64,000 nucleotides of DNA from Tieghemostelium lacteum (taxonomy: Eukaryota > Evosea > Eumycetozoa > Dictyosteliales > Raperosteliaceae). The notes under the pieces are model-generated. The model saw nothing but the letters and a program-made list of their open reading frames with translations. It did no database searches and was not told where the DNA came from. The stretch covers positions 496,001-560,000 of the forward strand of contig LODT01000041.1 in assembly GCA_001606155.1 (NCBI GenBank). Reading direction: 5' to 3'. The position numbers and the translations under genes were made by a program. Numbering within the stretch: the stretch's first letter is position 1; each line of letters begins with the position of its first letter. This document shows, piece after piece, positions 10,626-36,546 of this stretch.

Positions 10626-11231
10626 TTATAGATTCCATAAAAGTTGTAAAAGATCTATATTACAGCTACGGAATAGTTCTATTCCTGACTTGGTTTGTTG
10701 TATAAAATGTTTTGAAAATATTAAATCAGAACCTTGTTTAACTACTTTGGCTATATCCGAAGACGGCAGAGAACAAAATGAAACTGAACCATGTATATAA
10801 CATCCTACATGTTCTTCAAAGAATGTATTGGTAACTGATTGACAATCCACTAGTCCACCAGAATTTTGATCTAAAACATTCTTTGCTATACTCCTTTGTA
10901 TACAACCTCTTACATACTCAGACCATTCCTGTCCTTTTTTAGTGAGTGTATGTTGAATACCAGAGTACTCTATACATTTTTTATACATCATTTCTTTTAC
11001 TATAGGACATGAACTGGTTGAGGGTTCTAAACACTCTGAATACCACATACAATCCTCACCTTCTGGGTTTGAGCATTTTGATGTAAAAGATATATTTTGT
11101 GATGTTAAACTATTTAAACCTGTTTTTATTTTTTCATTTGTTTCTTTGTTCAACAAATCATATTTAAATGTTTTAAAATACAATATAAAAATTATTATAA
11201 GGAATAAATATACTAATAATCTCAATTTCAT
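10626..11231 (-). CDS. Secreted or signal-anchored Cys-rich protein (short paralogue)
   Basis: Single exon, 201 residues. A hydrophobic N-terminus (LLVYLFLIIIFILYF) works as signal peptide or anchor. The rest carries evenly spaced cysteines: CSNPEGEDCMWYSECLEP, CPIVKEMMYKKCIEY, GCIQRSIAKN, DCQSVTNTFFEEHVGCY and SFCSLPSSD. The same block makes up the middle of the protein at 36976-38163, so the two are paralogues. They lie on the same strand on opposite sides of the sacsin-like array. This copy lacks EGF-like modules. Function unknown; the Cys pattern suggests an extracellular helical domain held by disulfides. Confidence 0.7.
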   Translation of the reverse strand: MKLRLLVYLFLIIIFILYFKTFKYDLLNKETNEKIKTGLNSLTSQNISFTSKCSNPEGEDCMWYSECLEPSTSSCPIVKEMMYKKCIEYSGIQHTLTKKGQEWSEYVRGCIQRSIAKNVLDQNSGGLVDCQSVTNTFFEEHVGCYIHGSVSFCSLPSSDIAKVVKQGSDLIFSKHFIQQTKSGIELFRSCNIDLLQLLWNL

Positions 11232-11388
11232 TATATAACTTTTGAAAATTTTCGTCTCTAGAAAGATTTTTCTTCTTTGACTAATTTTTATTCAGATATT
11301 TTTTAAATTCAATTAAAATTAATTCGTCATATTCTACCTATAAAATTATATTTTTATTTATTGTAATAATTAATTAAATTATACAGAT

Positions 11389-11600
11389 CTATTTATTTAA
11401 ATTTCTATAACTAGTATTTTTTAAAACCACTACATTAATTACTCTTTTTGGGGTAATAGCATCGTGAAAGCCTCTAAGAAAGGTATTGGGTGTCGGGTTT
11501 GAACTGATATAGAATGTTATCAGTTTTTCCTGAAAAGGTTCTAATTTTTGATCTACACTTGCGGATCTAGACCATTGGTTATCTTTTATTTTTTTTTTTT
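11389..11600 (-). other. GC-elevated island, unidentified (coding relic or ncRNA)
   Basis: Within an otherwise very AT-rich gap, ~170 bp has clearly higher GC. On the minus strand it is open for over 60 codons to a TAG at 11389-11391 and reads protein-like (QWSRSASVDQKLEPFQEK, NTFLRGFHDAITPKRV), but no ATG or clear upstream exon is visible. On the plus strand it contains an 8-bp inverted repeat, AACTGATA...TATCAGTT (~11502-11525), and an AATTTTTG resembling an Sm site. tRNA, U1-U6 and SRP RNA signatures were not found. It may be an exon relic or an RNA gene. Confidence 0.3.
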
Positions 11601-11743
11601 ATTTTATATAATTTCGGTTACCATAAGCAAATATTTCTAAATCTATATTACAGATCAGATTGCACTAGTATAATAAAATGATGGTTAAATGGATCAATTT
11701 ATTGATAAACTTAATTTGTTTTCAGCCATTTGGTTAAATAACC

Positions 11744-14700
11744 ATGTCATCTAAATTTGATTTTAATTTCTCAGGTGGCAATGCAATAGAACCCTATTAC
11801 ATTCGTATAAAGGGTATTTTATCAAAATACCATGAATCAACAATATTAAAAGAGTTATTACAGGTAAGATTTTTAAATGAACACATTTTATCAAGGATAT
11901 ATACTAATAAATAAATTTACTTATAAAGAATGCTGATGATGCATTCTCAACCAAAGTTATCATTAAACATGATACAAAATCATACCCAACTGAAAGTCTA
12001 TTCAGTGATGAATGCAAAGTATTACAAGGACCTTCACTATTGGTTTACAGTAATTCCATTTTTCAAGAAAAAGATTGGGTTGGAATCAAAAAACTTGGAT
12101 CAGGTTCAAAAGAAAATGATCTGAAATCAGTTGGTAAATTTGGATTGGGTGTGAATTCAGTCTATCATGCAACTGATTATTTGACAATCGTATCTGATAG
12201 ATACTTGTTAATGCAAGATCCTCTTGGTAATATCAACAAAGATGGTATGTTCGTAAACTTTGTTGAACAAACAATATCTGAAAAGTATCCAGATCAAGTT
12301 GAACCATTCAAACAATTTGGATGTGATATGAGATCGTCTTTTAATGGTACTATCATAAGACTTGCAATTCGTTCTAAACCCAGCTTCATGAAACCACAAT
12401 ACATCCAAGATTATAAACCTATAATCAATGAATTCATTCAACAATTGAATGAACTTCTTCTATTCTTGAAAAACATCAATACTGTTGAAGTATATCATGA
12501 TGACACTCTTCAATTTAGAGTTTCTATCACCAACCCAGAATCAATTGGTAAAAAGCGAACCGTTGTACATGATTATATCAGTAAGATTGCAGATTCAATG
12601 GGTGAATATTCACTTTTAGATTTCATGAATATTATAAAAGGAAAAAGAGACCTACCACTGGAATCATTTATAATGGATCTTGAATATCAAACATCGAATG
12701 GAAAAGAGTTAAATTCATATTGTTTAACTCATGGTCTTATCACTAAAGGTTTGAGTACTATCCCAATTAATGAAGGTACCAAATTAATTCCATGGGGAGG
12801 TACTGCTGTTCCATTAAATCTTAATATTAACCAACTTAAAAAATTTGAAGGTATTCCATTCACATTTCTTCCAATTGGGTCACTTCGATACTCAATTCCA
12901 TTCCATTTCAATGGATTTTTTGTTTTATCAGATGCCAGAACTGATATATTGTTCAGTTCAACTAAACTTGAACACTCTCAAGAATATCAACATTCAAAAT
13001 GGAATGAAAATATTCTTTCGAATATCATTCCTGAACTCTATAATAGCAGTCTATTATTCATGGTTCAAAGAGGAATGTTTGATCAAGAATCCAATTTGAT
13101 TTATCACCATTTCCCTTATCACCAACACTCTTCAGAGAAAGATAAAATATTATCATCTCACATTGTAAAAAGACTCTCAACATCTCAATTATTTCAAGAT
13201 ATCAAGACTCTTCAATTCCATTATCTTCAAAGTTGTTATTGTGTAACTGAAAAAGAACCAATTGAAATTCGAAATATTCTTCATGAAAGATCAATTCCAA
13301 CAATTGAAATTCCAACAAAACTACTTCAATTTCTAATTAAACAAGGATGTGTAGTAAATATGGTCACACCTCAATACATTTGCTCTCTATTGAAAAGACA
13401 TCCAATCCGTGAATTCTGTGAAATAACTCTTAAATATTTGATTTCTGATTTCAACACCATCTCTCAAGGCTATCTTGAAGGTGTTAAAGTATTTCCAATT
13501 GCAAATGGTACTCTTGCTTCATTGAGAAGAAGAAGAAGAGGTTTAATGTTTACATCAGATTATTATTTACCAGATAAACATCAATTCACTTTGATGAAAA
13601 GTAGAAGTTCTCATAAACTATATGACATCACCAAGTCTAATTTAATTCATTACAATATCACATCACTGTTCCAATACTACACCGCATCACACTATCACCA
13701 GCAAACATTTATTATTGATTTTAAAAATTCATTCCCAGAATTGGTTGGTATACATAAGGTGTTGAAAGAATTGCCATCAGACTTTAATTTTCAAGTATTT
13801 TGGGATTATATGATAAACCAAGACAATACTAGTATTTTTGATTTTGTTTGTGTTCCTGCAACAACAAATGATGAAAGGTTTGTATATGTCTCACCAAACT
13901 ATCCAAAAATTCTACTTGATTCAATGTCAGAGTCAATAAGAAAGATTGGAGTTCTTTTTGGTTTTGTTGTTGTCCAAATAGATGGAAAACACTCTAAATC
14001 AATAATCAAGGTAAAATCTAATGAAAATTTTATCAATGGATTGACAAAAGAATCTGTTTCCACCTTAAATTCTGATGATAGAACCACACTTAGAAAGTAT
14101 CTTATATCTGAAAAAAGAACATCATCACAATCTGATATCATTTTCAGATTACCAATATTCAACAATTCCAATGGTACTTTCAGTAATATCACCAATTATT
14201 CTCTTTGCACCAATTGGACTGAAATGAAAAACTATTCACTTGGAAAAGAATATGTATTTTTTGAAGATTCACAATTAAATCTACAAAATTGGCCAACCAC
14301 AATTCACAACAAACATCAAACCATTGTAAAGTTTGTTCTTCCTCATATGGACCAATACAACATAGATAGCCAACTCTCTATTGCCAAATTAATCATTGTG
14401 TCTCCCGAAACATTTAAACCTCTAATTTCATCTGATTATAAATGGATTCCCAATCATTGTGGTACACTATCATCAATCAATGATGTTTATTTACTCAATC
14501 AAGACCAAGAAGATTTGTTAAAGTACACACCTCTTGGTGAATCTCAGATTATTTCACACCAACTGACATTTTTAAAATCTGATTCTTGGAAAACAATAGG
14601 AGTTAAATACAATTACTCACCAATAAATTTGGTGAAAGATTGCCTCACCAATCTACCAAATTTACCTGAACCCATCAATTCTGAAGGTATACCTAAAGTC

Positions 14701-17700
14701 CTAAACTATATGTTTAGAAATGAAATCACTCAATCAATAATTCTATCCATTCCATTCATTCCAGTCATAAAAGAACTTCAATTAAATGAAAATATGAATT
14801 ATCAAGATATTGTCTCAATTCAACAATGTTACCTTAAAGTTCATAAAGATCTTTGTTATAGTCAAGTTAGTATTGCTGACATTGATCCAAATATAATGAA
14901 AAACTTCAATAATAATCTTCCAATACCAACATGTGAAATGGTAATTGCTCATCTAAATTATCTCATTGATAATTGGACTGATTCAGAAGAATTTGATCAA
15001 ATGGAGGCCATTGAAAAGATTTATTCATTTTTGAATCAACATCAGATTGAACTCCCAAACAATATGAATTGGGTTTGGAATGGATATAAATTTGTTTCAC
15101 CAACCAAAACATTTGTCAATGGAACATCAATTGATCCATACATTTTTGAAATACCACAGAACCTCAAGAAATTCAACAAATTGTATGAAAAGTCACACAT
15201 TCCAACATCACCATCATTCAGACAATATGCACACATTCTAGAAACTATCTATAAAGAATCTAATGGAATGGTTTTAGATGATTCAAAATTCAAAATCACT
15301 CTAAAAATTGTTTCTGAAATTTCCAATATATCAGTACAAGATCGATGTGATTTGTATCTTCCAACCACCAAAATGACACTTGTAAAACAGAAAAATATCA
15401 TCTTTTCTGATATTGATGAACTACATCTATCATTAAAGTCGTTCTCAATTCTTCACAGAGACATTTCATTTAATGTTGCCAAATCACTCGGAATCCAATC
15501 CAGCTCAAGTGCCATTTTGAAAGGTAAACCAATTCCAGGTCATGATTTTGGACAATATGAAGAATTGGTCACTAGAATTAAGAATATCAATGAAGAATAC
15601 AAAGTTGAATCATTTCTCAAAGAAATGGTTCAGAATTCAGATGATAGTGGTGCTACAGTTCTTGAGATTATTTTGGATAAAAGAAAATATCATCTCAAAG
15701 ACCTAGATTCTGATCTTCCTACGAAATTTAAAGATTACCTTGAACCATCGTTGGTTATCTTTAATAATTCGAAATTCACAGATCAGGATATTCAGAATAT
15801 TCAGAGACTTGGATCATCTTATAAAAAAGAAGATGTTTCAAAAATTGGACAATATGGAATTGGATTCAATTCAGTTTATAATTTCACCAATGTACCATCC
15901 ATTATCACCAGAGATTCATTATACGTATTTGACCCTCTAAGATCTCATTTTTCAGTTGAAAAAAGTCCAGGAAGATCATTTGAATTCTCACTTCGAGATC
16001 AATTAATTGATATCTTTCAACCTCTAAACTATCCAAATTTAGGATTAACATTTGATTGCGAGTTTGAAAACACCATCATTCGTTTACCACTCAGAAAGCA
16101 TCTACATGAAAAAATATCTAACAACAAATGGAACATAGAATCCATAACTAAAACCATTGGGCAGTTTAAAGATTCAGCTGAACAATGTTTGTTATTTCAA
16201 AAACATCTCAACAAAATATCATTCTCAATAATTGAAGATGATGGAAGTAATCAATCCGTTGAAACATTTTCAATAGAGAAAACTATTCATAAAGGATTTA
16301 ATCCTTCTGAACTAAACCAGATATTATATAATTTCAATTGGAAACAACCATTTATGTATTTAACCCATCTTGAAATCTCTCAAAATAGAAATCAAGAAAT
16401 TGAATCAAACCAATGGATCATTGGTTGGTGTGTTGGTTCATCACAAAAAGGTATTCTCCATAGCATCTATCAAAATCTTTCAGAAAAGATTGTACCAATT
16501 GGTAGTGTTGCAATTTGTTTTACAAAAGAAATTAAAGGTATTCCATTCACCTTTCTTCCTCTTCCAAAATCAACAGAATTACCAATTCATGTCAATGGTA
16601 GTTTCATCTTGAATTCATCAAGACAAGATGTATTCAATTCACTTGGTAATGACATTGATATTTCAACATTACCAATATCCACTACCTCTGGTTCAGAACA
16701 AGAAAAATCAATTTGGAACATTTCAATTGTACAAGAGATTCTTTCTTCTCTCTATATTAATACATTGAATGACGAATCATTTAAACTTCATTATGAAGGT
16801 ATTAAAAGAGTAAATGACTTCTATAAAATATTCCCTCACAGTGACACCACATTATGGAACAGAATAACAAAGAACTTTTATGAAAACGCCAATGATAAAG
16901 AAATTTTTGCTAAACTAGAATTGGACAAAGAAGGAGAAATCACATTCAAATGGAGTAATCTCTCAGAATGCGACATGATTATTCACTCACTTGATAATCA
17001 TATTGAAATCATTAAAATATTACTTTTAGATGGTTGTAATATTTATTTGGTTCCTGAGAATATCTACAAGAAATTGAAAAACAATCAAATTCCAATTCTC
17101 AGTTCTACCCAAGTATCTAAATTCTATCAATCAAATCATTCATTTTACCTTACCGATCCACCAAAACCATCATTGAAATCCATTGATAATATTTTAACAT
17201 TGGTAAAGTTCGTCACTATCTCAGATGTTAAGAATTTATATGGAACTCCATTTATGTTACTCTACAATGAAACCAAATCAGAATTATTCTCTAAGTGGAA
17301 TAGATCACATTTGATTTTTAATCAAGAATATTATTCATTAAATCCAGATTCTGATATTTACCTCCACCCCAAACTCTGCTCTATAGTACCATGGCTAGAT
17401 GTGCGCACGTACGCCAAAAATCCCAATTTTCCAGAATTCTTTCAGAATTATTTAGTCTCAAAACTTCACAGTTTTAAATATCTCAAAGAATGTATTCCCA
17501 TTCTATCTTCTCTAAAATCACATTGGAATGAATTCAGTAATGAAAATATTAATTTACTCATTAATATTTCTATTGTACCAGTTTTGAATGAGGAAAATAA
17601 TGAAATTTTAAAATTCAACAAAGTATCTAAATACTATCATCCTGATGTATTGAAAATTGTTAAACCTAAATATCAACTTCCACCACCTCTAAATGATATA

Positions 17701-19842
17701 AGTTGGCTTCCAATCCTAATGAAACTCTCAATCAGATGTTCATTAACTACAAATAACATTTTAAAACAGTTGAAAAATCTAGAACTAAACCCAAACGAAA
17801 TTAAATTCAACAACCTCTATGAGTATCTTAAATTTCACCATCCTCATGAAGTATCCTCTGTTTTACAGTCACTGAAAAATTGTAAAATATTTCCTTGTGT
17901 TACTGAATCAGATCATATCGGATTCCTTAGTTCCTCATTCTCATCATTAACAAATTCAGTTGATTCATCTCTCTCTCATCTATGTTTTACAGTCATTCCA
18001 ACAAGAAAATTAAGATTAATTTTTCCTGAAACAGTTGAACAGGAACGTGTAGAAAAACATCTTCATAATCTCCTCAAAGAAGTTGAAAAATGGAAAAACC
18101 AAGATAAACTACACGAATTATCAACCATTTTAGAAAAAATAATGAAATATATAGATGAGAAAGATTGGATTGTTAATGAACTACCAAATAACTACCTTTT
18201 TCCAATTGATTCTCAGCTCTTCCCAGTTGGTGATATTGTAGTTGATGACTCTGATTCTTTAGATCCATTCTTTAAAGTGGTACCTAAGAATTTCTTGAAA
18301 TATCGACATACTATTTTGAAACTTGGATTTTCATCTCTAACTGATAAAAATATTATCTCTAAACTTTCTTCAATGAAAAATATGGTAATTGGGGAACACA
18401 GTAAAAACAAATTTGTCTATCTTTTAAATAAGATACAACACTCTCTACCACCAGTTTTATTAGATTCCAAATATCATCTGAGATCACATAATCAAGTTTA
18501 TCATGTACCCAAATCCTCTATAAATTTGATAAATAGAATTGATGTTACTGGTTTAATTTTTGAAGTTCACCGTGATTTGGTCATGAGTAGAGAAAAACTG
18601 AAGATTCAATCAATTCAAGATATGGTTATAGAGTTATTAGATGAAGAAAAATCGTCATATAAGGTTGAATCAACAATATTCATAGATTTCTCAGATAAGA
18701 ATATCATTTCAGGGGTTCATCGTCAATTGGAAAAAGTTAAAGATAAAAGAGATATTTTAAGTAGATTTCAAACTCTGAAGGTTTATTCAGGTAATATACT
18801 GAGTAAATTTACATTGATATCCCAAGATAAAGATGTTACCAAACAACCAAAAGGATCTTCATACATTTATAATTCTAAAACCAACTCAGTATACTTTTCT
18901 AAACTTGGTTATAATGAATTATCATTCTATTCATTTTTAACCAGTGCTTTTACTTTTAATGTCATGGATATCTATGAAGATATTCAAGCATTAAAGAGTT
19001 ATCAGATTGATGTGAACCCACTCCACAATTATTCCAATGGAGATATTGTCCTCTACTCTAAAGATGGTGTCAATATGATAAAAAGTAAAGTTGTTATGGT
19101 TTTAGAGAATCTAAAAGAATTCTTCTCTGAATTGAAGTTTTATCAAATACAAATTCAAGATGGTAAATTGAAATCAGTTTCATCAATTCATCTCTATAAA
19201 CAAAGTTCCGCAATCAATTACTCTGATATCTCTTTTGAACCACAATCCATTCAACAACTCTACAATGAGGTTTATCGTCAATATGGTGATGGATGGGAAT
19301 GTCAAAGAGTTTTACAATTTGCATCTCAGATAAAAGTTATCATAAAAACCAATTCTATTTCAAAGGTTGACAAAGCATCAAATAAACAATATAGAAGTTG
19401 GATTAAAACTATATATAAATCAGCTTACTCAGGAAACTACAATGAAGCAAAACCCAATCACCAATATTATAATATTTTTAAAGAACAAGCTAAATATGAT
19501 TTAGAAACTGCAGAATACCTTCATCAAGGTGGATTCTATGCACCATCATGTTTCTATTCACAACAAACTGTTGAGAAGATTTGTAAATCCTATTGCTACC
19601 TAAAAGGAATTTCATTTAATTTAAGCTCACACATGATATTTTACAATATGATTTCAGAAATCGATTGTAGTGAAGCACATAAATTGGAATCTCATTATAT
19701 ATCAACAAGGTATCCTCCATTACATGGATCAGGATCTACAGTTCCTTTCAAAAGCTACAATCAACCTGAATCTAGCAATTTCATTCAAATTGCCAGGGAT
19801 GTGTATAACAGTCTAATTACTGTAATGAATCCAAAAGAATAA
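11744..19842 (+). CDS. Sacsin-like giant ATPase/HEPN protein, copy A
   Basis: Two exons, 11744-11863 and 11929-19842; intron 65 bp (GTAAGA..AAAG); product 2,677 residues. Two sacsin-type SIRPT/GHKL (Bergerat-fold) modules are visible. In module 1, exon 1 ends in KELLQ and exon 2 starts with NADDA (41-45), followed by GPSLLVYS and the glycine loop GKFGLGVNSVYH (~109-120). In module 2, VESFLKEMVQNSDDSGA (~1267-1283) is followed by GQYGIGFNSVYNFTN (~1348). The C-terminus is a HEPN domain (~2556 to end: AKYDLETAEYLHQGGFYAPS, RYPPLH). Human sacsin has the same plan with three modules plus UBL and DnaJ domains, which I do not see here. Sacsins are Hsp90-like ATPases linked to protein quality control; HEPN binds nucleotides and in prokaryotes is often an RNase. 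First of three tandem copies. Confidence 0.85.
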
Positions 19843-19884
19843 AATATAAAAAAGATAAAAAACAATTCATTTAATTTAATATTT

Positions 19885-20156
19885 GATGCTTTTTCAACAA
19901 AAGTAATAAAATATGATACAAGGGTTTACTGTTATATTATTCAGTAAGGAAAGCAAATAATTGCAAGGACCATCATTACTGGTTAACAGTAATTCCATTA
20001 GGGAAGAAAAATAGATGTTTAACCTTAGTGGTTAATTTTATTATTTTTAATTTTAATGGTGTTGAAATCAGTTGGTAAATTTGGATTGGGTGAATTTCTC
20101 TATACTTTCAAATTGCAAAAGAGGTGAGTATCATTCTAATTACTGTAATGAATCCA
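19885..20156 (+). pseudogene. Decayed fragment of a sacsin-like gene between copies A and B
   Basis: Short blocks match the start of exon 2 of the neighbouring genes, in order: GATGCTTTTTCAACAAAAGTAAT (from 19885), the 'TTGCAAGGACCATCATTACTGG' equivalent near 19960, CAGTAATTCCATT, then GAAATCAGTTGGTAAATTTGG near 20065. Random AT-rich sequence separates them. The fragment ends with CTAATTACTGTAATGAATCCA (to 20156), which matches the 3' end of copy A. It is non-coding. It starts directly after the conserved 3' flank of copy A, which fits debris from unequal exchange in the tandem array. Confidence 0.75.
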
Positions 20157-20383
20157 TTCTAATACTATTTTATTTGTACCCCAAATATATAACAAATTTT
20201 TTATTTTACCCCTCGTTTTACCACATGAGGATTAAAATCATTGCAATTTATATAAATTATATAAACATATCACATGTATATACATATATGTTTGTAAAAT
20301 TAGCACTATTTATATTAAAAGTTAAGATGTTGCTAATTTTTTTTTTATTTATAATTTTTTTTTTAATTGATTTAGTATAAACT

Positions 20384-23300
20384 ATGAACTCTAAATTTAA
20401 TTTTGATTTCTCTGGTGGAAATGCAACGGAACCATATTACATTCGTATTAAGGGTATTTTATCTAAATACCATGAATCAACAATATTAAAAGAATTACTT
20501 CAGGTAAGATTTCAAAAAATTTCTGATTTTGTATTTTTAAATTTTTACTAAAATTTTTATTTAAATAGAATGCTGATGATGCTTTTTCAACAAAAGTAAT
20601 CATAAAATATGATACAAAGTCTTACCCAACTGAGATTTTATTCAGTAATGAGTGCAAAGTATTGCAAGGACCATCATTATTGGTTTACAGTAATTCCATT
20701 TTTCAAGAAAAAGATTGGGATGGAATCAAAAAACTTGGAACAGGTTCAAAACAACTTGATCTGAAATCAGTTGGTAAATTTGGATTGGGTGTGAATTCAG
20801 TCTATCATGCAACTGATTATTTGACAATCGTATCTGATAAGTACATGTTGATGCAAGATCCTCTTGGTAATATCAACAAAGATGGATTCTTCATAGACTT
20901 TGTTGATCAACAACTTTCAGAAAAGTACCCAGATCAAGTTGAACCATTCAAACATTTTGGATGTGATATGAAAACACCATTTAATGGTACTATCATAAGA
21001 CTTCCAATTCGATCAGAACCAAGTCCAATTAAACCACAAATCATAGAGGATTATGAACCCATAATCAATGAATTCATTCAACAATTGTATGAACTTCTTC
21101 TCTTCTTAAAGAATATAGAAATTGTTGAAGTCTACAATGATGATGATCTCAAATTTAAAGTTTCAATAACCAATTCAGAATCAATTGGTACCATGAGAAC
21201 CGTTGTACATGATTATATCAGTGAAATTGCAGATTCGATGGATGAATTCTCAGTTTTAGATTTCATTGATATTCTTGATAGAAAAGATGATCTTCCACTA
21301 GAATCATTTATAATGAATCTAGAATATGAAACCCTTTTTGGAAAAGATGTTCAGTCATATTGTTTAACTCATGGTCTTATCACTAAAGGTCTGAATAATA
21401 TTACAATCAACGAAGGAACCAAATTAATTCCATGGGGAGGTACTGCTGTTCCATTAAATCTTGAAATAGATCAACTTGAAAATTTTGAAGGTATTCCATT
21501 CACATTTCTTCCAATTGGATCACTTCGATACTCAATTCCATTCCATTTCAATGGTTTTTTTGTTTTATCTGATGCCAGAACTGATATATTGTTCAGTTCA
21601 ACTAAACTTGAACACTCTCAAGAATATCAACACTCAAAATGGAATGAAAATATTCTTTCGAATATCATTCCTGAACTCTATAATAGCAGTCTATTATTCA
21701 TGGTTCAAAGAGGAATGTTTGATCAAGAATCCAATTTGATTTATCACCATTTCCCTTATCACCAACACTCTTCAGAGAAAGATAAAATATTATCATCTCA
21801 CATTGTAAAAAGACTCTCAACATCTCAATTATTTCAAGATATCAAGACTCTTCAATTCCATTTTCTTCAAGATTGTTATTGTGTAACTGAAAATGAACCC
21901 ATTGAAATTCGAAATATTCTTCATGAAAGATCAATTCCAACAATTGAAATTCCAACAAAACTACTTCAATTTATGATTGAACAGGGGTGTGTAGTGGATA
22001 TGGTCTCAACTCAATACATTTGTTCTCTATTGAAAAATTATCCAATCAGTGAATTCTGTGAAATAACTCTTAAATATTTGATTTCTGATTCCGAAACCAT
22101 CTCTCGAGGTAAACTTGAAGGTGTTAAAGTATTTCCAATTGCAAATGGTACTCTTGTTTCATTGAACCAATATAGTTACATCAAGAGTTATATCAATTTA
22201 CCTGAATATTTTTTGCCTGATCATGATCAGTTTACCTTGATAAAAAGTAGAAGTTCAAATAGAATTTTTGACATCACCAAAACTAATCTAATTGATGACA
22301 ATATAAAGTTGTTGTCCAAATATTACAAAACCAATCAATACCAATATCTATATTTTATCACTGATTTAATTCAATCATTTCCAGAGTTGGTTGGAAGACA
22401 ACAAATAATACATCATTTACCATCAGACTTTCATATTGATGTATTTTGGAATTATATGAAGTATCAAGATAATGACACTATTCTTGATTTTGTTTGTGTT
22501 CCTGCAACAACAGAAAGCGGTAAATTAGTTTATGTCTCACCAAACTACCCAAAAATCCTACTTGATTCAATGCAAAAATCAATCAGAGATATTGGACTAC
22601 TTCTTGGCTTTGTTGTTGTCCAAGTTGATGGAAAACACTCTAAATCAATAACCAAGGTAAAATCTAATGATAATTTTATCAATGGATTGACAAAAGAATC
22701 TGTTTCCACTTTAAATTCTGATGATATAACCACACTAAGAAACTATCTTTTATCTGAAAAAAGAACATCATCACAATCTGATATCATTTTCAGATTACCA
22801 ATATTCAACAATTCCAATGGTACTTTCAGTAATATCACCAATTATTCTCTTTGCACCAATTGGACTGAAATGAAAAACTATTCACTTGGAAAAGAATATG
22901 TATTTTTTGAAGATTCACAATTAAATCTACAAAATTGGCCAACCACAATTCACAACCAACAACAAACTATTGTAAAGTTTTTACTTCCTCATATGGATCA
23001 ATACAACATAGATAGCCAACTCTCCATTGCCGAAATCATCATCAAGTTTCCCAAAATATTTAAACCTCTAATTTCATCTGATTATAAATGGATTCCCAAT
23101 CATTGTGGTACACTATCATCAATCAATGGTGTTTATTTACTCAATCAAGACCAAGAAAATTTGTTAAAATACACACCACTTGGTGAATCTCAGATTATTT
23201 CACACCAACTGACATTTTTAAAATCTGATTCTTGGAAAACAATAGGAGTTAAATACAACTACCCATCAATAAATTTGGTGAAAGATTGTCTCACCAATCT

Positions 23301-26300
23301 ACCAAATTTACCTGAACCCATCAATTCTGAAGGTATTTATCAAATTCTAAACTATATGTTTAGAAATGATATCACTCAATCAATAATTCTATCCATTCCA
23401 TTCATTCCAGTCATAAAAGAACTTCAATTAAATGAAAATATGAATTATCAAAATATTGTTTCAATTCAACAATGTTACCTTAAAGTTCATAAAGATCTTT
23501 GTTACAGTCAAGTTAGTATTGCTGACATTGATCCAAAGATAATGAAAAACTTCAATAATAATCTTCCAATACCAACATGTGAAATGGTAATTGCTCATCT
23601 AAATTATCTCATTGACAATTGGACTGATTCAGAAGAATCTGATCAAATGGAGGCCATTGAAAAGATTTATTCATTTTTGAATCAACATCAGATTGAACTC
23701 CCAAACAATATGAATTGGGTTTGGAATGGATATAAATTTGTTTCACCAACTAAAACATTTGTCAATGGAACATCAATTGATCCATACATTTTTGAAATAC
23801 CACAGAACCTCAAGAAATTCAACAAATTGTATGAAAAGTCACACATTCCAACATCACCATCATTCAGACAATATGCACACATTCTAGAAACTATCTATAA
23901 AGAATCTAATGGAATGATTTTAGATGATTCAAAATTCAAAATCACTCTGAAAATTGTTTCTGAAATTTCCAAAATATCAGCACAAGATAGATGTGATTTG
24001 TATCTTCCAACCACCAAAATGACACTTGTAAAACAGAAAAATATTATCTTTTCTGAAATTGATGAACTACATCTATCATTGCAGTCATTCTCAATTCTTC
24101 ACCGAGACATTTCATTTAATGTTGCCAAATCACTCGGAATCCAATCCAGCTTAGGTGCCATTTTGAAAGGTAAACCAATTCCAGGTCATGATTTTGGACA
24201 ATATGAAGAATTAGTCACTAGAATTAGGAATATCAATGAAGAATACAAAGTTGAATCATTTCTCAAAGAAATGGTTCAGAATTCAGATGATAGTGGTGCT
24301 ACAGTTCTTGAGATTATTTTGGATAAAAGAAAATATCATCTCAAAGACCTAGATTCTGAACTTCCTAAGAAATTTAAAGATTATCTTGAACCATCATTGG
24401 TAATCTTTAATAATTCGAAATTCACAGATCAGGATATTCAGAATATTCAGAGACTTGGATCATCTTATAAAAAAGAAGATGTTTCAAAAATTGGACAATA
24501 TGGAATTGGATTCAATTCAGTTTATAATTTCACCAATGTACCATCCATTATCACCAGAGATTCATTATACGTATTTGACCCACTAAGATCTCATTTTTCA
24601 GTTGAAAAAAGTCCAGGAAGATCTTTTGAATTCTCACTTCGAGATCAATTAATTGATATCTTTCAACCTCTAAACTATCCAAATTTAGGATTAACATTTG
24701 ATTGCGAGTTTGAAAACACCATCATTCGTTTACCACTCAGAAAGCATCTACATGAAGAAATTTCTAAGAACATTTGGAACATAGAATCCATAACTAAAAC
24801 CATTGAGAAGTTTAAAGATTCAGCTGAACAATGTTTGTTATTTCAAAAACATCTCAACAAAATATCATTCTCAATAATTGAAGATGATGGAAGTAATCAA
24901 TCCGTTGAAACATTTTCAATAGAGAAAACTATTCATAAAGGATTTAATCCTTCTGAACTAAACCAGATATTACATAATTTCAATTGGAAACAACCATTTA
25001 TGTATTTAACCTATCTTGATATCTCTCAAAATAGAAATCAAGAAATTGAATCAAACCAATGGATTGTTGGTTGGTGTGTTGGTTCATCAAAACAAGGTAT
25101 GCTCTATAACATCTATCAAAATCTTTCAGAAAAGATTGTACCAATTGGTAGTGTTGCAATTTGTTTTACAAAAGAAATTAAAGGTATTCCATTCACCTTT
25201 CTTCCTCTTCCAAAATCAACAGAATTACCAATTCATGTCAATGGTAGTTTCATCTTGAATTCATCAAGACAAGATGTATTCAATTCACTTCACAATAACA
25301 TTGATATTACAAAAATTCCAATATCCACTACCTCTGGTTCAGAACAAGAAAAATCAATTTGGAATATTTCAATTGTACAAGAGATTCTTTCTTCTCTCTA
25401 TATTAATACATTGAATGATGAATCATTTAAACTTCATTATGAAGGTATTAAAAGAGTAAATGACTTCTATAAAATATTCCCTCACAGTGACACCACATTA
25501 TGGAACAGAATAACAAAGAACTTTTATGAAAACGCCAATGATAAAGATATTTTTGCTAAACTAGAATTGAACAAAGAAGGAGAGATCATATTCAAATGGG
25601 GTAATCTCTCAAAATGCGACATGATTATTCACTCAATTGATAATCATATTGATATCATTAAAATATTACTTTTAGATGGTTGTAATATTAATATGATTCC
25701 TGAGAATATCTACAAGAAATTGACAAACAATCAAATTCCAATTCTCAGTTATACCCAAGTATCTAAATTCTATCAATCAAATCATTCAATTTACCTCTCC
25801 GATCCACCAAAACCATCATTGAAATCCATTGATAATATTTTAACATTGGTTAAGTTCGTCATTATCTCAGATGTTGACAATTTAAATGGAACTCCATTTA
25901 TGTTACTCTACAATGAAAACGAATCAGTATTATTCTCTAAAAACAATCCATCACATTTGATTTTTAATCAAGAATATTATTCACTAAATCCAGATTCTAA
26001 TCTTTATATCCACCCCAAACTCTGTTCAATAGTAAGATGGCTAGATATGCACATGTACGCCAAAAATCCCAATTTCCCAGAATTCTTTCTGAATTATTTA
26101 GTCCCAAAACTTCACAGTTTTAAATATCATAACGAATGTATTCCCATTCTATCTTCTCTAAAATCACATTGGAAAGAATTCAGCAATGAAACTATTAATT
26201 CACTGATTAAAATTTCTATTGTACCAGTTTTGGATGAGGAAAATAATGAAATTTTAAAATTCAACAAAGTATCTAAATACTATCATCCTGATCTATTGAA

Positions 26301-28473
26301 AATTGTTAAACCTAAATATCAACTTCCACCACCTCTAAATGATATAAGTTGGCTTCCAATCCTAATGAAACTCTCAATCAGATGTTCATTAACTGCAAAT
26401 AACATTTTAAAACAGTTGAAAAATCTAGAAGTTGACCCAAACGAAATTAAATTCAACAAGCTCTATGAGTATCTTAAACTTCACCATCCTCATGAAGTAT
26501 TCTCTGTTTTAATGTCACTGAAAAATTGCAAAATATTTCCTTGTGTTACTGAATCAGATCATATCGGATTCCTTAGTTCCTCATTCTCATCATTAACAAA
26601 TTCAGTTGATCCATCTCTCTCTCATCTATGTTTTACAGTTCTTCCAACTAGAAAAAATTACTTTGGATTAATGTTAAATTTTCTTGGAACAGTTGAACAG
26701 GAACATGTAGAAAAACATCTTCATAATCTCCTCAAAGAAGTTGAAAAATGGAAAAACCAAGATAAACTACACGAATTATCAACCATTTTAGAAAAAATAA
26801 TTAAATATATAGCGGAGAAAGAATGGATCGTCAATGTTAATGAACTACCAAATAACTACCTTTTTCCAATTGATTCTCATCTCTTCACAGTTAGTGATAT
26901 TGTAGTTGATGACTCTGATTCTTTAGATCCATTCTTTAAAGTGGTACCTAAGAATTTCTTGAAATATCGATATACGATGTTGAAACTTGGATTTTCAACT
27001 CTTACTGATGAAAACATTATCTCTAAACTTTCTTCAATGAAAAATATGGTAATTGGGGAATACTGTAAAAACAAATTTGAGTATCTTTTAAATAAGATAC
27101 AACACTCTCTACCACCAGTTTTATTAGATTCCAAATATCATCTGAGATCACATAATCAAGTTTATCATGTACCTGAATCTTCTATAAATTTGATGAATAG
27201 AATTGATGTTACTGGTTTAATTTTTGAAGTTCACCGTGATTTGGTCATGAGTAGAGAAAAACTTAAGATTCAATCAATTCAAGATATGGTTACAGAGTCA
27301 TTAGATGAAAAAAAATCGTCATATCAGGTTGAATCAACAATATTCATAGATTTCTCAGATTATCATATCATTTCAATGATTCATCGTCAATTGGAAAAAG
27401 TTAGAGATAAAAGAGATATTTTAGGTAGATTTCAATCTCTGAAGGTTTATTCAGGTAATATACTGAGTAAATTTACATTGATATCCCAAGATAAAGATGT
27501 TACCAAACAACCAAACGGATCTACCTATATTTATAATTCTAAAACCAACTCAGTATACTTTACTAAGCTTGGTTATAATGAATTATCATTCTATTCATTT
27601 TTAACCAGTGCTTTTACTTTTAATGTCATGGATATCTATGAAGATATTCAAGCATTAAAGAGTTATCAGATTGATGTGAACCCACTCCACAATTATTCCA
27701 ATGGAGATATTGTCCTCTACTCTAAAGATGGTGTCAATATGGTAACAGCTAAAGTTGTTATGATTTTAGAGAATCTAAAGGAATTCTCTGAATTGAAGTT
27801 TTATCAAATACAAATTCAAGATGGTGAATTGAAATCAGTGCCATCAATTCATCTCTATAAACAAAGTTCCACAATCAATTACTCTGATATCTCTTTTGAA
27901 CCACAATCCATTCAACAACTCTACAATGAGGTTTATCGTCAATATCGTGATAGATGGGAATGTCAAAGAGTATTACAATTTGCATCTCAGATAAAAGTTA
28001 TCATAAAAACCAATACTATTTCAAAGGTTGACAAAGCATCAGATAAACAATATAGTAGTTGGATTAACACTTTATTTAAATCAGCTTTCTCAGGAAACTA
28101 CAATGAATCAAAACCCAATCACCAATATTATAATATTTTTAAAGAACAAGCTAAATATGATTTAGAAACTGCAGAATACCTTCACCGAGGTGGATTCTAT
28201 GCACCATCATGTTTCTATTCACAACAAACTGTTGAGAAGATTTGTAAATCCTATTGCTACCTAAAAGGAATATCATTTAGTTACAATAATATATCAGAAG
28301 TAGATTGTAGTGAAGCACATAAATTGGAATCACACAATATATCAACAAGATATCCTCCATTACAAGGATTAGGATCTACAGTACCTTTCAAAAACTACAA
28401 TCAAACTCAATCTAGCAATTCCATTCAAATTGCCAGAGAATTGTATAGTAATGTAATGAATCAATTAGAATAA
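20384..28473 (+). CDS. Sacsin-like giant ATPase/HEPN protein, copy B
   Basis: Two exons, 20384-20503 and 20569-28473; intron 65 bp at the same position as in copy A; product 2,674 residues. Both GHKL modules are intact (NADDA, GKFGLGVNSVYH; QNSDDSGA, GQYGIGFNSVYN). Long stretches are nearly base-for-base identical to copy A (for example 21600-21880 against 12960-13240). Other patches differ strongly, notably around 22150-22490. The HEPN end is seven residues shorter than in A and C before the SE.DCSEAHKLES block, and RYPPLH is RYPPLQ here. Copy B resembles copy C in its first kilobase and A elsewhere, so the array looks mosaic. Confidence 0.85.
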
Positions 28474-28742
28474 ATTAAAAACCAATTCATTTAATATCAT
28501 AAATAAAATCTATTACACTAAATCCTTTATATCACAAAAATATATTTAAAGATTTTTGTTATACATCTAGTAAACTGAAATTACAGATGATATTTTATAG
28601 CTCAAATCTAGATTTATTTCACAGTAATTCCTTAAAAACTGAAAATAGGTTTTGTAAATTGGTATAAATCAAAATTAGCTTAGTTATGATATTTTATTTT
28701 AATAAAATTTTTTTTTTTTATTATTTTTAATATTAACAAACT

Positions 28743-31700
28743 ATGAACTCTAAATTTAATTTTGATTTCTCTGGTGGAAACGCAACGGAACCATATTACA
28801 TTCGAATCAAGGGAATTTTATCAAAATACCATGAATCAACAATATTAAAAGAATTACTTCAGGTAAGATTTTAAAATTTCTGATTTTTTATTTTTAAATT
28901 TTTACTAAAATTATTATTTAAATAGAATGCTGATGATGCTTTTTCAACAAAAGTAATCATAAAATATGATACAAAGTCTTACCCAACTGAGATTTTATTC
29001 AGTAATGAGTGCAAAGTATTGCAAGGACCATCATTATTGGTTTACAGTGATTCCATTTTTCAAGAAAAGGATTGGGTTGGAATCAAAAAACTTGGATCAG
29101 GCTCAAAAGAACTTGATCTGAAATCAGTTGGTAAATTTGGATTGGGTGTGAATTCAGTCTATCATGCAACTGATTATTTGACAATCGTATCTGATAAGTA
29201 CATGTTGATGCAAGATCCTCTTGGTAATATCAACAAAGATGGATTCTTCATAGACTTTGTTGATCAACAACTTTCAGAAAAGTATCCAGATCAAGTTGAA
29301 CCATTCAAACATTTTGGATGTGATATGAAAACACCATTTAATGGTACTATCATAAGACTTCCAATTCGATCAGAACCAAGTCCAATTAAATCACAAATCA
29401 TAGAGGATTATGAACCCATAATCAATGAATTCATTCAACAATTGTATGAACTTCTTCTCTTCTTAAAGAATATAGAAATTGTTGAAGTCTACAATGATGA
29501 TGATCTCAAATTTAAAGTTTCAATAACCAATTCAGAATCAATTGGTAACATGAGAACCGTTGTACATGATTATATCAGTGAAATCGCAGATTCAATGGAT
29601 GAATACTCAGTTTTAGATTTCATTGAAATTCTTGATAGAAAAGATGATCTTCCACTAGAATCATTTATCATGAATCTAGAATATGAAACCCTTTTTGGAA
29701 AAGATGTTCAGTCATATTGTTTAACTCATGGTCTTATCACTAAAGGTCTGAATAATATTACAATCAACGAAGGAACCAAATTAATTCCATGGGGAGGTAC
29801 TGCTGTTCCATTAAATCTTGAAATTGACCAACTTGAAAATTTTGAAGGTATTCCATTCACATTTCTTCCAATTGGATCACTTCGATACTCAATTCCATTC
29901 CATTTCAATGGATTTTTTGTTTTATCTGATGCCAGAACTGATATATTGTTCAGTTCAACTAAACTTGAACACTCTCAAGAATATCAACACTCAAAATGGA
30001 ATGAAAATATTCTTTCGAATATCATTCCTGAACTCTATAATAGAAGTCTATTATTCATGGTTCAAAGAGGAATGTTTGATCAAGAATCCAATTTGATTTA
30101 TCACCATTTCCCTTATCACCAACACTCTTCAGAGAAAGATAAAATATTATCATCTCACATTGTAAAAAGACTCTCAACATCTCAATTATTTCAAGATATC
30201 AAGACTCTTCAATTCCATTTTCTTCAAGATTGTTATTGTGTAACTGAAAAAGAACCAATTGAAATTCGAAATATTCTTCATGAAAGATCAATTCCAACAA
30301 TTGAAATTCCAACAAAACTACTTCAATTTATGATTGAACAAGGATGTGAAGTAGATATGATCACACCTCAATACATTTGTTCTCTATTGAAAAGTTATCC
30401 AATCAGTGAATTCTGTGAAATTACTCTTAAATATTTGATTTCTGATTCCGAAACCATCTCTCAAGGCTATCTTGAAGGTGTAAAAGTATTTCCAATTGCA
30501 AATGGTACTCTTGGTTCATTGACCCTAAAAAGATACATTAGGAATTATATCAATTTACCTGAATATTTTTTGCCTGATCATGATCAGTTTACCTTGATAA
30601 AAAGTAGAAGTTCAAATAGAATTTTTGACATCACCAAAACTAATCTAATTGATGACAATATAAAGTTGTTGTCGAATTATTACAAAACCAACCAATACCA
30701 AAATCTTAATTTTATCACTGATTTAATTCAATCATTTCCTGAGTTGGCTGGAAGACAAGAAATAATACATCATTTACCATCAGACTTTCACATTGATGTA
30801 TTTTGGGATTATATGAAGTATCAAGATAATGACACTATTCTTGATTTTGTTTGTGTTCCTGCAACAACACAAACCGGTAAATTAGTTTATGTCTCACCAA
30901 ACTATCCAAAAATTCTACTTGATTCAATGCAAAAATCAATCAGAGATATTGGACTACTTCTTGGCTTTGTTGTTGTCCAAGTTGATGGAAAACACTCTAA
31001 ATCAATAACCAAAGTAAAATCTCATGATAATTTTATAAATGGATTGACAAAAGAATCAGTTTCTACTTTAAATTCTGATGATATAACCACTCTAAGAAAG
31101 TATCTTTTATCTGAAAAAAGAACATCATCACAATCTGATATCATTTTCAGATTACCAATATTCAACAATTCCAATGGTACTTTCAGTAATATCACCTATT
31201 TTTCTCTTTGCACCAATTGGACTGAAATGAAAAACTATTCACTTGGAAAAGAATATGTATTTTTTGAAGATTCACAATTAAATCTACAAAATTGGCCAAC
31301 CACAATTCACAACCAACAACAAACTATTGTAAAGTTTTTACTTCCTCATATGGACAAATACAACATAGATAGCCAACTCTCTATTGCCAAAATCATCATC
31401 AAGTTTCCCGAAACATTTAAACCTCTAATTTCATCTTATTATAAATGGATTCCCAATCATTGTGGTACACTATCATCAATCAATGGTGTTTATTTACTCA
31501 ATCAAGACCAAGAAGATTTGTTAAAATACACACCTCTTGGTGAATCTCAGATTATTTCACACCAACTGACACTTTTGAAATCTGATTCTTGGAAAACAAT
31601 AGGAGTTAAATACAACTACCCATCAATAAATGGTAATTGCTCATCTAAATTATCTCATTGACAATTGGACTGATTCAGAAGAATCTGATCAAATGGAGGC

Positions 31701-34700
31701 CATTGAAAAGATTTATTCATTTTTGAATCAACATCAGATTGAACTCCCAAACAATATGAATTGGGTTTGGAATGGATATAAATTTGTTTCACCAACCAAA
31801 ACATTTGTCAATGGAACATCAATTGATCCATACATTTTTGAAATACCACAGAACCTCAAGAAATTCAAAGAATTGTATGAAAAGTCACACATTCCAACAT
31901 CACCATCATTCAGACAATATGCACACATTCTAGAAACTATCTATAAAGAATCGAATGGAATGGTTTTAAAAGACTCAAAATTCAAAATCACTCTGAAAAT
32001 TGTTTCTGAAATTTCTAAAATATCAGCACAAGATAGATGTGATTTGTATCTTCCAACCACCAAAATGACACTTGTAAAACAGAAAAATATTATCTTTTCT
32101 GAAATTGATGATTTACATCCATCATTAAAGTCATTTTCAATTCTTCACAGAGACATTTCATTTAATGTTGCCAAATCACTCGGAATCCAATCCAGCTCAA
32201 GTGCCATTAAGAAAGGTAAACCAATTCCAGGTCATGATTTTGGACAACATGAAGAACTAGTCACTAGAATTAAGAATATCAATGAAGAATACAAAGTTGA
32301 ATCATTTCTCAAAGAAATGGTTCAGAATTCAGATGATAGTGGTGCTACAGTTCTTGAGATTATTTTGGATAAAAGAAAATATCATCTCAAAGACCTAGAT
32401 TCTGATCTTCCTAAGAAATTTAAAGATTATCTTGAACCATCATTGGTTATCTTTAATAATTCGAAATTCACAGATCAAGATATTCAAAATATTCAGAAAC
32501 TTGGATTATCTTATAAAAAAGGAGATGTTTCAAAAATTGGACAATATGGAATTGGATTCAATTCAGTTTATAATTTCACCAATGTACCATCCATTATCAC
32601 CAGAGATTCATTATACATATTTGACCCACTAAGATCTCATTTTTCAGTTGAAAAAAGTCCAGGAAGATCTTTTGAATTCTCACTTCGAGATCAATTAATT
32701 GATATCTTTCAACCTCTAAACTATCCAAATTTAGGATTAACATTTGATTGCGAGTTTGAAAACACCATCATTCGTTTACCACTCAGAAAACAACTACATG
32801 AAAAAATATCTAACAACATTTGGAACATAGAATCTATAACTAAAACTATTGAGAAGTTTAAGGATTCAGCTGAACAATGTTTGTTATTTCAAAAACATCT
32901 CAACAAAATATCATTCTCAATAATTGAAGATGATGGAAGTAATCAATCCGTTGAAACATTTTCAATAGAGAAAACTATTCATAAAGGATTTAATCCTTCT
33001 GAACTAAACCAGATATTATACAATTTCAATTGGAAACAACCATTTATGTATTTAACCCATCTTGATATCTCTCAAAATAGTAATGAAGAAATTGAATCAA
33101 ACCAATGGATAGTTGGTTGGTGTGTTGGTTCATCAAATAAAGGTATGCTCCATAGCATCTATCAAAATCTTTCAGAAAAGATTGTACCAATTGGTAGTGT
33201 TGCAATTTGTTTTACAAAAGATATTAAAGGTATTCCATTCACCTTTCTTCCTCTTCCAAAATCAACAGAATTACCAATTCATGTCAATGGTAGCTTCATC
33301 TTGAATTCATCAAGACAAGATGTATTCAATTCACTTGACAATAACATTGATATTACAAAAATACCAATATCCACTACCTCTGGTTCAGAACAAGAAAAAT
33401 CAATTTGGAATATTTCAATTGTACAAGAGATTCTTTCTTCTCTCTATATTAATACATTGAATGATGAATCATTTAAACTTCATTATGAAGGTATTAAAGG
33501 AGTAAATGACTTCTATAAAATATTCCCTCACAGTTACACCACATTATGGAACAGAATAACAAAGAACTTTTATGAAAACGCCAATGATAAAGAAATTTTT
33601 GCTAAACTAGAATTGGACGAAGAAGGAGAGATCACATTCAAATGGAGTAATCTCTCAGAATGCGACATGATTATTCACTCACTTGATTATCATATTGAAA
33701 TCATTAAAATATTACTTTTAGATGGTTGTAACATTAATATGATTCCCGAGAATATCTACATGAAATTGACAAACATTCAAATTCCAATTCTCAATTCTAC
33801 CCAAGTATCTAAATTCTATCAATCAAATTATTCATTTTACCTTACCGATCCACCAAAACCATCATTGAAATCCATTGATAATATTTTAACATTGGTAAAG
33901 TTCTGCACTATAGAACTAGATGTTGACAATCTAAATGGAACTCCATTTATGTTACTCCACAATGAAAACGAATCATTATTATTCTCTGACAATAATCCCT
34001 CTCATTTGATTTTTAATCAAGAATATTATTCACTAAATCCAGATTCTAATCTTTACCTCCACCCCAAACTCTGTTCTATTGTAAGATGGCTAGATAACAT
34101 ATACGCCAAAAATCTCAATTTCCCAGAATTCTTTCTGAATTATTTAGTCTCAAAACTTCACAGTTTTAAATATCTTAACGAATGTATTCCAATTCTATCT
34201 TCTCTAGAATCTCATTGGTATAAATTCAGCAATGAAAATATTAAATCACTCATTAAAATTTCTATTGTACCAGTTTTGAATGAGGAAAATAATGAAATTT
34301 TAAAATTCAACAAAGTATCTAAATACTATCATCCTGATGTATTGAAAATTGTTAAACCTAAATATCAACTTCCACCACCTCTAAATGATATAAGTTGGCT
34401 TCCAATCCTAATGAAACTCTCAATCAGATGTTCATTAACTACAAATAACATTTTAAAACAGTTGAAAAATCTAGAAGTTGACCCAAACGAAATTAAATTC
34501 AACAAACTCTACGAGTATCTTAAATTTCACCATCCTCATGAAGTATCCTCTGTTTTACAGTCACTGAAAGATTGTAAAATATTTCCTTGTGTTACTGAAT
34601 CAGATCATATCGGATTCCTTAGTTCCTCATTCTCATCATTAACAAATTCAGTTGATTCATCTCTCTCTGATCTATGTTTTACAGTTATTCCTACCAGAAA

Positions 34701-36546
34701 GCATCACTTTGAATTAATTTTAAGTTTAATTTTTCCTGAAACAGTTGAACAGAAACATGTAGAACAACATCTTCATAATCTCCTCAAAGAAGTTGAAAAA
34801 TGGAAAAACCAAGATAAACTACACGAATTATCAATCATTTTAGAAAAAAATATGAAATATATAGAGGATAAAGATTGGATCGTCAATGAACTACCAAGTA
34901 ACTACCTTTTTCCAATTGATTCTCAACTCTTCCCAGTTAGAGAGATTGTAGTTGATGACTCTGATTCTTTAGATCCATTCTTTAAAGTGGTACCTAAGAA
35001 TTTCTTGAAATATCGATATACGATGTTGGAACTTGGATTTTCAACTCTTACTGATGAAAATATTATCTCTAAATTTTCTTCAATGAAAAATATGGTAATT
35101 GGGGAACACTGTATAAACAAATTTGAATACCTTTTAAATAAGATACAACACTCTCTACCACCAGTTTTATTAGATTCCAACTATTATCTTAGATCACATA
35201 ATCAAGTTTATCATGTACCCAAATCCTCTATAAATTTGATAAATAGAATTGATGTTACTGGTTTAATTTTTGAAGTTCACCGTGATTTGGTCATGAGTAG
35301 AGAAAAATTGGAAATTCTATCAATCCAAGATATGGTTACAGAGTCATTAGATGAAGAAAAATCGACATATCAGGTTGAATCAACAATATTCATAGATTTC
35401 TCAGATAAGAATATCATTTCTGTGGTTCTTCGTCAATTGGAAAAAGTTAGAGATAATAGAGATATTCTAAGTATATTTCAAACTCTGAAGGTTTATTCAG
35501 GTAATATACAGAGTAAATTTACATTGATATCTCAAGATAAAGACGTTACCAAACAACCAAACGGATCTACCTACATTTATAATTCTAAAACCAACTCAGT
35601 ATACTTTACTAAGCTTGGTTATAATGAATTATCATTCTATTCATTTTTAACCAGTGCTTTTAGTTTCAATGTCATGGATATCTATGAAGATATTCAAACA
35701 TTAAAGAGTTATCAGATTGATTTGAACCCACTCCATAATTATTCCAATGGAGATATTGTCCTCTACTCTAAAGATGGTGTCAATATGGTAACAGCTAAAG
35801 TTGTTATGATTTTAGAGAATCTAAAAGAATTCTTCTCTGAATTGAAGTTTTATCAAATACAAATTCAAGATGGTAAATTGAAATCAGTTTCATCAATTCA
35901 TCTCTATAAACAAAGTTCCACAATCAATTACTCTGATATCTCTTTTGAACCACAATCCATTCAACAACTCTACAATGAGGTTTATCGTCAATATGGTGAT
36001 GGATGGGAATGTCAAAGAGTTTTACAATTTGCATCTCAGATAAAAGTTATCATAAAAACCAATTATATTACATGGGTTGACAAAGCATCAGATACACAAA
36101 ATAGTAGTTGGATTACCACTTTATTTAAATCAGCTTACTCAGGAAACTACAATGAAGCAAAACCCAATCACCAATATTATAATATTTTTAAAGAACAAGC
36201 TAAATATGATTTAGAAACTGCAGAATACCTTCATCAAGGTGGATTCTATGCACCATCATGTTTCTATTCACAACAAACTGCTGAGAAGATTTGTAAATCC
36301 TATTGCTACCTAAAAGGAATTTCATTTAATTTAAGCTCTCACATGATATTTTACAATATGATTTCAGAAATCGATTGTAGTGAAGCACATAAATTGGAAT
36401 CCCACTATATATCTACAAGATATCCTCCATTACATGGATCAGGATCTACAGTTCCTTTCAAAAACTACAATCAAACTCAATCCAGTAATTCCATTAAAAT
36501 TGCCAGAGATTTGTATAACAATCTAATAACTGTAATGAACAATTAA
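28743..36546 (+). CDS. Sacsin-like protein, copy C, with internal 311-bp deletion
   Basis: Exon 1 is 28743-28862, intron 63 bp, and exon 2 starts at 28926. Reading is open from there to a stop at 31659-31661; another frame is open from about 31630 to 36546. Against copy B, 311 bases equivalent to 23275-23585 are missing at 31630/31631, between two AAAT copies, which shifts the frame. The rest of the coding sequence (second GHKL module QNSDDSGA and GQYGIGFNSVYN; HEPN end with RYPPLH) has no further break over 4.9 kb. A 46-base GTAATT..TTCAG segment, 31633-31678, could act as an intron. If removed, reading continues in phase with a net loss of 119 residues. The locus may thus be a very young pseudogene, two truncated genes, or a shortened but working gene. 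Confidence 0.65.
31633..31678 (+). other. Possible cryptic intron at the deletion junction of copy C
   Basis: GTAATT at 31633 and TTCAG ending at 31678 bound 46 bases. The first codon base before the segment (31632) and the two after it (31679-31680) make a full codon, and the downstream frame is the conserved one (EESDQMEAIEK). Against it: 46 bp is short, and ~67% AT is far below the true introns here. In copies A and B the same bases are coding. Confidence 0.3.

Follow-up and report, generated by a model that had tools for sequence, protein, structure and literature searches.

The locus analyzed here raises the question of what three adjacent and very long genes of Tieghemostelium lacteum are, and of how copies that are nearly identical in one stretch can differ so much in the next. 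The window, a stretch of 64,000 nucleotides of contig LODT01000041.1 (from an assembly of 23.3 Mb in 43 contigs), carries three direct sacsin-HEPN copies, A, B and C, each of about 8 kb, and the head-to-tail trio described in the initial annotation was borne out by the gene models (Table 1). In each copy exon 1 comprises 40 codons and is followed by a single short intron (65, 65 and 63 nt in A, B and C, respectively), whose position had already been described as shared and whose position and phase are identical. The 3′ flank, also said to be shared, is common to the copies, but only over 26-51 bp in pairwise matches. Each copy matched PF25794 twice and PF05168 once, at the C-terminus, in agreement with the two GHKL modules and the HEPN end previously assigned to it. 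When the genome was searched with SACS, HEPN and the copy A protein (six frames, exon by exon, in an assembly that is possibly incomplete), only A, B and C were matched, and all six candidates over the PF25794 cut-off were modules of the array, two per copy. The same assembly gave 15 matches to the Dictyostelium Class I RNA, 14 of them over the gathering score, which marks it as dictyostelid. Sacsin-HEPN proteins of slime moulds are already published, those of Dictyostelium and Polysphondylium being named in PMC3710099; among its differences from known sacsins, the array is triplicated in tandem and has one mosaic copy.

Table 1. Features of the sacsin-HEPN array (positions in the window)
Feature	Position	Strand	Description
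Copy A	11744..19842	+	ATG to last stop; 2677 aa, uninterrupted frame, mosaic copy
Copy A, parts	exon 1 11744-11863; intron 11864-11928; exon 2 11929-19842	+	
Copy B	20384..28473	+	ATG to last stop; 2674 aa, uninterrupted frame, HEPN damaged
Copy B, parts	exon 1 20384-20503; intron 20504-20568; exon 2 20569-28473	+	
Copy C	28743..36546	+	ATG to last stop; frame broken at about 31627
Copy C, parts	exon 1 28743-28862; intron 28863-28925	+	
Copy C, ORFs	first ends at stop 31661; second 31630-36546	+	second ORF 1638 aa
SACS module 1, copy A	11929..12501	+	PF25794; first part of the domain in exon 1
SACS module 2, copy A	15559..16257	+	PF25794, 4.0e-62
SACS module 1, copy B	20569..21138	+	PF25794
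SACS module 2, copy B	24205..24903	+	PF25794
SACS module 1, copy C	28926..29495	+	PF25794
SACS module 2, copy C	32248..32949	+	PF25794
HEPN, copy A	19477..19809	+	PF05168; RYPPLH, Rx4H spacing
HEPN, copy B	28138..28449	+	PF05168; 7-aa in-frame deletion, RYPPLQ for RYPPLH
HEPN, copy C	36187..36519	+	PF05168; RYPPLH
Foreign tract 1, copy A	11744..12845	+	166 of 1100 columns A-only (15.1%); spans exon 1 and intron
Near-identity island, copy A	12846..13525	+	17 of 680 columns A-only (2.5%); between the tracts
Foreign tract 2, copy A	13526..13965	+	114 of 440 columns A-only (25.9%)
Remainder of copy A	13966-19842	+	133 of 5519 columns A-only (2.4%)
Copy C deletion junction	31624..31630	+	4-nt microhomology (AAAT) shared by the two breakpoints, taken from the A and B sequences
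Fourth copy, exon-2 start remnant	19884..20092	+	82% identity with B across 136 columns, and a further 30 of 30 bases
Fourth copy, 3′ coding end remnant	20107..20156	+	84% to A over 50 bases

The sacsin-type, Hsp90-like identity proposed for these genes was supported by the PF25794 matches and by the similarity of module 2 of copy A to the structures of sacsin SRR1 (E-values of 4e-31 to 1.6e-29). Table 1 of PMC9880540 gives ten residues that are invariant between Hsp90 and sacsin; as mapped by eye on the alignment, nine of these ten ATP-site residues were kept in module 1 and eight in module 2. Module 1 deviates by a Ser at the adenine-site Asn of sacsin and by a Val for the G-box Phe, and the motifs surrounding the ATP site of either module do not differ between A, B and C. 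In addition, a middle-region Arg (R366), present in both modules of every copy, was invariant in 13 of 13 aligned modules; it is a candidate counterpart of the catalytic Arg 474 of human SIRPT1, which lies in a human stretch outside the alignment. The AlphaFold2 model of module 2 had a mean pLDDT of 41.4 (13 sequences). Animal sacsin (SACS), like the array genes, combines Hsp90-like SRR modules with a C-terminal HEPN; however, human sacsin has three SRR modules (PMC3629688, PMC3710099) versus two per array gene, and the human-type protein carries ubiquitin-like and DnaJ domains, for which no Pfam match was obtained at an E-value of 0.1 with the array ORFs (taken without exon 1 and the first exon-2 codons). 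The sole HPD tripeptide of copy A lies in YYHPDVLK, at aa 1944.

The divergence of copy A from its neighbors is not uniform. In 200-bp windows A was 65-100% identical to B and C, and B versus C was mostly >90% identical outside the flanks, with values of 86% or less only at the 3′ end. Hence, the alternation of near-identical blocks with divergent patches reported earlier was recovered, with windows down to 65% and an identical run between A and B of 229 bp (from 12994 and 21634, respectively). No two copies are identical over a longer run, and pS between B and C is 0.067, so that the description of the array as young needs caution. We then fitted private sites piecewise along the aligned gene, intron included, in ten-column steps. 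The A-only sites fell into four segments, versus one segment in 20 of 20 shuffles of the same sites, and the B-only (n=145) and C-only (n=149) sites formed one segment each. Copy A is a mosaic, in which two divergent tracts flank a near-identical island; outside the tracts each copy has about 2% of private sites and the three are nearly equidistant. Window identity and segmentation concur that B and C agree at their 5′ ends against A, as had been claimed. The 5′ flank and the intron of A are also unlike those of B and C, so that tract 1 may mark the edge of an old duplication or crossover. To account for the island that separates the two tracts, one more double exchange is needed, of the type that gene conversion produces. 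The comparison comprises only A, B and C, and either direction of exchange fits.

Synonymous sites bear on whether exchange has to be invoked at all. Across 60-codon windows pS ranged from 0 to 0.53 between A and B and from 0 to 0.58 between A and C, the peaks (0.53-0.58) lying in tracts 1 and 2 versus about 0.05 elsewhere. Synonymous differences were spread unevenly along the gene between A and B (variance of 14.5) and between A and C (16.8), where permutations reached at most 5.7 for either pair, but not between B and C (2.8, with permutations reaching up to 3.9). A synonymous divergence that goes from 0 to more than 0.5 from one window to another requires recombination between paralogues. 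The lengths of the identical runs were less telling: the longest synonymously identical codon run was 95 for A-B (permutation mean of 81) and 180 for A-C (permutation maximum of 200), neither of them unusual, and therefore the case for conversion rests on the contrast in rates. The longest three-way identity was 175 columns; uniform placement, repeated 2000 times, gave at most 131, but this control leaves uneven constraint out of account.

The alternative that no exchange took place, and that the divergent patches of A reflect local positive or relaxed selection in a gene that otherwise diverges uniformly, is unlikely as a general account. It finds its best ground in codons 1050-2600, where amino-acid changes are clustered and synonymous changes are not, and in the codon models, in which M1a places 45-47% of the codons at an omega of 1, with the remainder near 0, and M2a is nominally better. 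Nevertheless, selection alone was rejected for tracts 1 and 2, because synonymous sites diverge there too, and the differences of A extend to its 5′ flank and intron. For the smaller patches of the 3′ two thirds the clustering of amino-acid but not of synonymous changes points the other way, and uneven constraint is probably the better account for codons 1050-2600. The gene conversion pattern attributed to the whole array thus holds as exchange that left tracts in A, but not for B and C, which are uniform, nor for these patches.

The description of the family as fast-evolving is fair, with an omega of about 0.5 for the array genes taken by themselves. The improvement of M2a over M1a (2 delta lnL of 8.5 for codons 780-2643 and of 10.0 for codons 1050-2600) came with a single codon with a posterior above 0.9, at a Trp/Asn/Asn column where the replacement requires several nucleotide substitutions, so that positive selection on the array appears weak. 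In codons 780-2643 the private nonsynonymous and synonymous changes numbered 79 and 34 in A (2.32), 74 and 27 in B (2.74), and 77 and 41 in C (1.88). The variability of modules 1 and 2 was also compared. In a short alignment (375 pairs) the correlation was 0.14, and the observed value was reached by 20 of 67 shifts with B-C and by 3 of 67 with A-B-C; in a longer one (982 pairs) it was reached by 3 of 169 shifts when all three copies represented each module, and by 18 of 169 when module 1 was represented by B-C only. These values are only suggestive of amino-acid variability that peaks at roughly corresponding places past the middle region in both modules.

At the 3′ end the mosaic is less clear. 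The initial annotation had grouped A and C against B at the HEPN end; in the last alignment block there were 9 private sites in A, 17 in B and 5 in C, and the A=C sites had a p of 0.006 in a runs test, but the private sites of B and of C each form one homogeneous segment along the whole gene, and the grouping may be regarded as weak. The HEPN of B has lost seven residues by a 21-nt deletion and has a His to Gln change in the Rx4H, and these lesions, found in B only, could equally yield the excess of B sites. RYPPLH, as found in A and C, fits the Rx4-6H spacing of HEPN RNases and is a candidate for that motif. Against the PDB (E-values up to 10) the HEPN of copy A matched only the prokaryotic HEPN structures 1wol, 1o3u and 1ufb (1.7e-10 to 2.3e-5), and the human sacsin HEPN chain was absent among these matches; the AlphaFold2 model of the C-terminal 325 aa had a mean pLDDT of 33.8 (3 sequences). 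PF05168, the HEPN-T family, is a stand-alone prokaryotic family, and in the array its HEPN is fused to a giant chaperone-like protein.

Copy C could be ruled out as an intact gene, its frame being broken by the deletion of 311 nt that are present in A and B. The break may be an assembly error, but the AAAT microhomology at the junction points to a real deletion, and it looks recent, since the nonsynonymous share of C is not raised. Furthermore, both remnants of a fourth copy sit in the spacer between A and B, and they indicate that at least four copies existed at the locus; the B-C spacer and the sequence upstream of A gave no such match. A weak 38-bp match downstream of C (E-value of 0.004) was left out of the remnant count. 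The broken C, the damaged HEPN of B and the remnants were absent from the initial annotation, whose observations largely hold for the anatomy and the 5′ mosaic, are weak at the 3′ end and overlooked decay; its interpretation stands for the sacsin-HEPN identity, the tandem array and the exchange between copies, with the mosaic limited to copy A.

Taken together, the locus is probably a tandem array of a dictyostelid sacsin-HEPN gene, of a known protein family, that undergoes birth-and-death turnover. The gene would have been duplicated in tandem, with copies gained and lost at this single locus. Copy A would owe its own, older 5′ end to an unequal crossover or to a duplication boundary, and its island to gene conversion within module 1, in the form of one or more double exchanges; the remaining sequence would have been homogenised and would then have gathered about 2% of private change per copy. 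In its present state the array consists of one remnant, a frameshifted C, a B with a damaged HEPN, and an A that is open with its motifs intact. As judged from the family, the intact protein would be a giant, ATP-driven Hsp90-like scaffold, in which the middle regions would move on clients as ATP is bound and hydrolysed at the two modules, and whose HEPN tail may bind or cut RNA. The product of B would retain its ATPase portion but have a HEPN that is not catalytic, and that of C would be a one-module fragment at most.

It has been suggested for HEPN-sacsins, in PMC3710099, that they act in stress-linked RNA control and in suicide responses, and it was of interest whether the array is an immune one, in which HEPN-sacsins are effectors of the TmtA type and a variable tandem set is kept by viral or bacterial conflict. 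P0001 matched the TmtA profiles of PADLOC (Tiamat anti-phage system) at 1.6e-65. However, against the same profile human sacsin SRR1 scored higher (1e-40, 137.7 bits) than the amoeba module (6.6e-34, 115.1 bits), and the match was rejected as specific evidence of defence: TmtA shares its ATPase module with both the array genes and human sacsin, and the match marks the ATPase family and not a common job. The C-terminal 325 aa, which include the HEPN, gave no PADLOC match, unlike the ATPase region. No paper that joins sacsin with Tiamat, or that names both Tiamat and TmtA, was found in a literature search thin on subscription journals. Within the sacsin family, a coral sacsin-like gene with two ancient haplogroups and a response to poly(I:C) (PMC8626496) offers a parallel case of unusual diversity, and PMC8195603 places sacsin among the domains fused to animal immune adaptors.

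Query A2 returned no related loci in the bacterial and archaeal genome contigs or in the viral contigs; query A3 returned none in the viral contigs and six in bacterial and archaeal genomes. Four of the latter encode bacterial giants of 2515-2600 aa with two modules each, the second detected by Pfam in three and by a PADLOC profile in the fourth, and they resemble copy A in length, in the N-terminal SACS module and in the placement of the second module in mid-protein. The similarity is mostly in the ATPase region, with best pieces of 28-36% over 96-153 aa, and none of the six proteins matched a HEPN at an E-value of 0.01. In one phylum SACS was matched in 40 of 294 genomes at an E-value of 0.001, and over the cut-off in 15. 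All four two-module loci had at least one PADLOC match within 8 kb, a raw count for these loci from 7 of the 13 other ORFs with a length of 150 aa or more. The neighbors were a BrxHI-like helicase at one locus, a PglX-like methylase at one, type IIG methylase pieces and a GmrSD-like protein at one and, at the fourth, a methylase together with a restriction-enzyme-like ATPase. A defence role of the array would be extrapolated from its family, and an immune array is quite improbable, given that positive selection is weak and that damage to two of the three copies is contrary to the prediction of a maintained repertoire.

A further reading, very unlikely in our view, is that the array is a recombining immune repertoire, in which modules akin to TmtA would sense a client, conversion would vary module 1 and with it recognition, and the HEPN, once activated, would cut RNA. 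The HEPN would then be active in A and C and inactive in B, with a client that is viral or bacterial, and the variability peaks past the middle region would be the surface that recognizes it. Least probable of all is an array of pseudogenes in which every copy decays once the need for it was lost, since the frameshift of C, the lost HEPN residues of B, the fourth-copy remnant and the omega of about 0.5 are outweighed by the open frames of A and B (2677 and 2674 codons), by about half of the codons having an omega near 0 and by ATP-site motifs that are identical in the three copies.

Birth-and-death turnover would make this array a well-resolved case for very long tandem genes of dictyostelids, with its stages side by side: a copy that is mosaic, one cut by a deletion at a microhomology, one whose effector domain is damaged, and one reduced to a remnant. 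No sacsin-family gene was detected in the genome outside the array, which makes copy A the natural single target for a test, and it would offer an amoeba in which the roles of the sacsin ATPase modules and of the HEPN may be addressed, with relevance to the human ataxia protein. Finally, the TmtA profile match common to human and amoeba sacsins makes a defence ancestry of the family worth testing.

The head-to-tail array of sacsin-HEPN copies is flanked immediately on either side by genes that are paralogues of each other (38% identity over 154 aa, E 3.8e-40), and both are oriented opposite to the array. The sacsin genes thus lie within an older duplicated gene pair. Elsewhere in the window, one ORF encodes the body of a papain-family protease and its neighbour an I29 propeptide; the two probably represent a single intron-bearing gene.

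Coordinates of the features described
Feature	Location	Strand or content
Flanking gene, directly upstream of array	window 10626-11231	(-)
Flanking gene, directly downstream of array	window 36976-38163	(-)
Protease ORF pair	window 56999-58183 and 58256-58828	both (-)
Locus of a sacsin-like giant	L016 331-10955	giant has two modules
Locus of a sacsin-like giant	L017 32-15710	giant has two modules
Locus of a sacsin-like giant	L018 43-15401	giant has two modules
Locus of a sacsin-like giant	L019 21-15386	giant has two modules

The profile of the anti-phage protein TmtA (PADLOC PDLC03965) matched the Hsp90-like module SRR1 of human sacsin (PDB 5v44) at 1e-40, and no statement of this link was found in the literature searched, which covered few subscription papers. 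At the bacterial locus L014, sacsin-like ORFs of 1034 and 1420 aa lie side by side (7950-11054 and 11009-15271), as if two modules had been separated into two genes. The bacterial giants of L016-L019 are 2515-2600 aa long, and at all four loci at least one gene resembling BrxHI, PglX, a type IIG methylase or a restriction enzyme was observed within 8 kb of the giant. These neighbourhoods may constitute a methylase/helicase/sacsin defence cluster.
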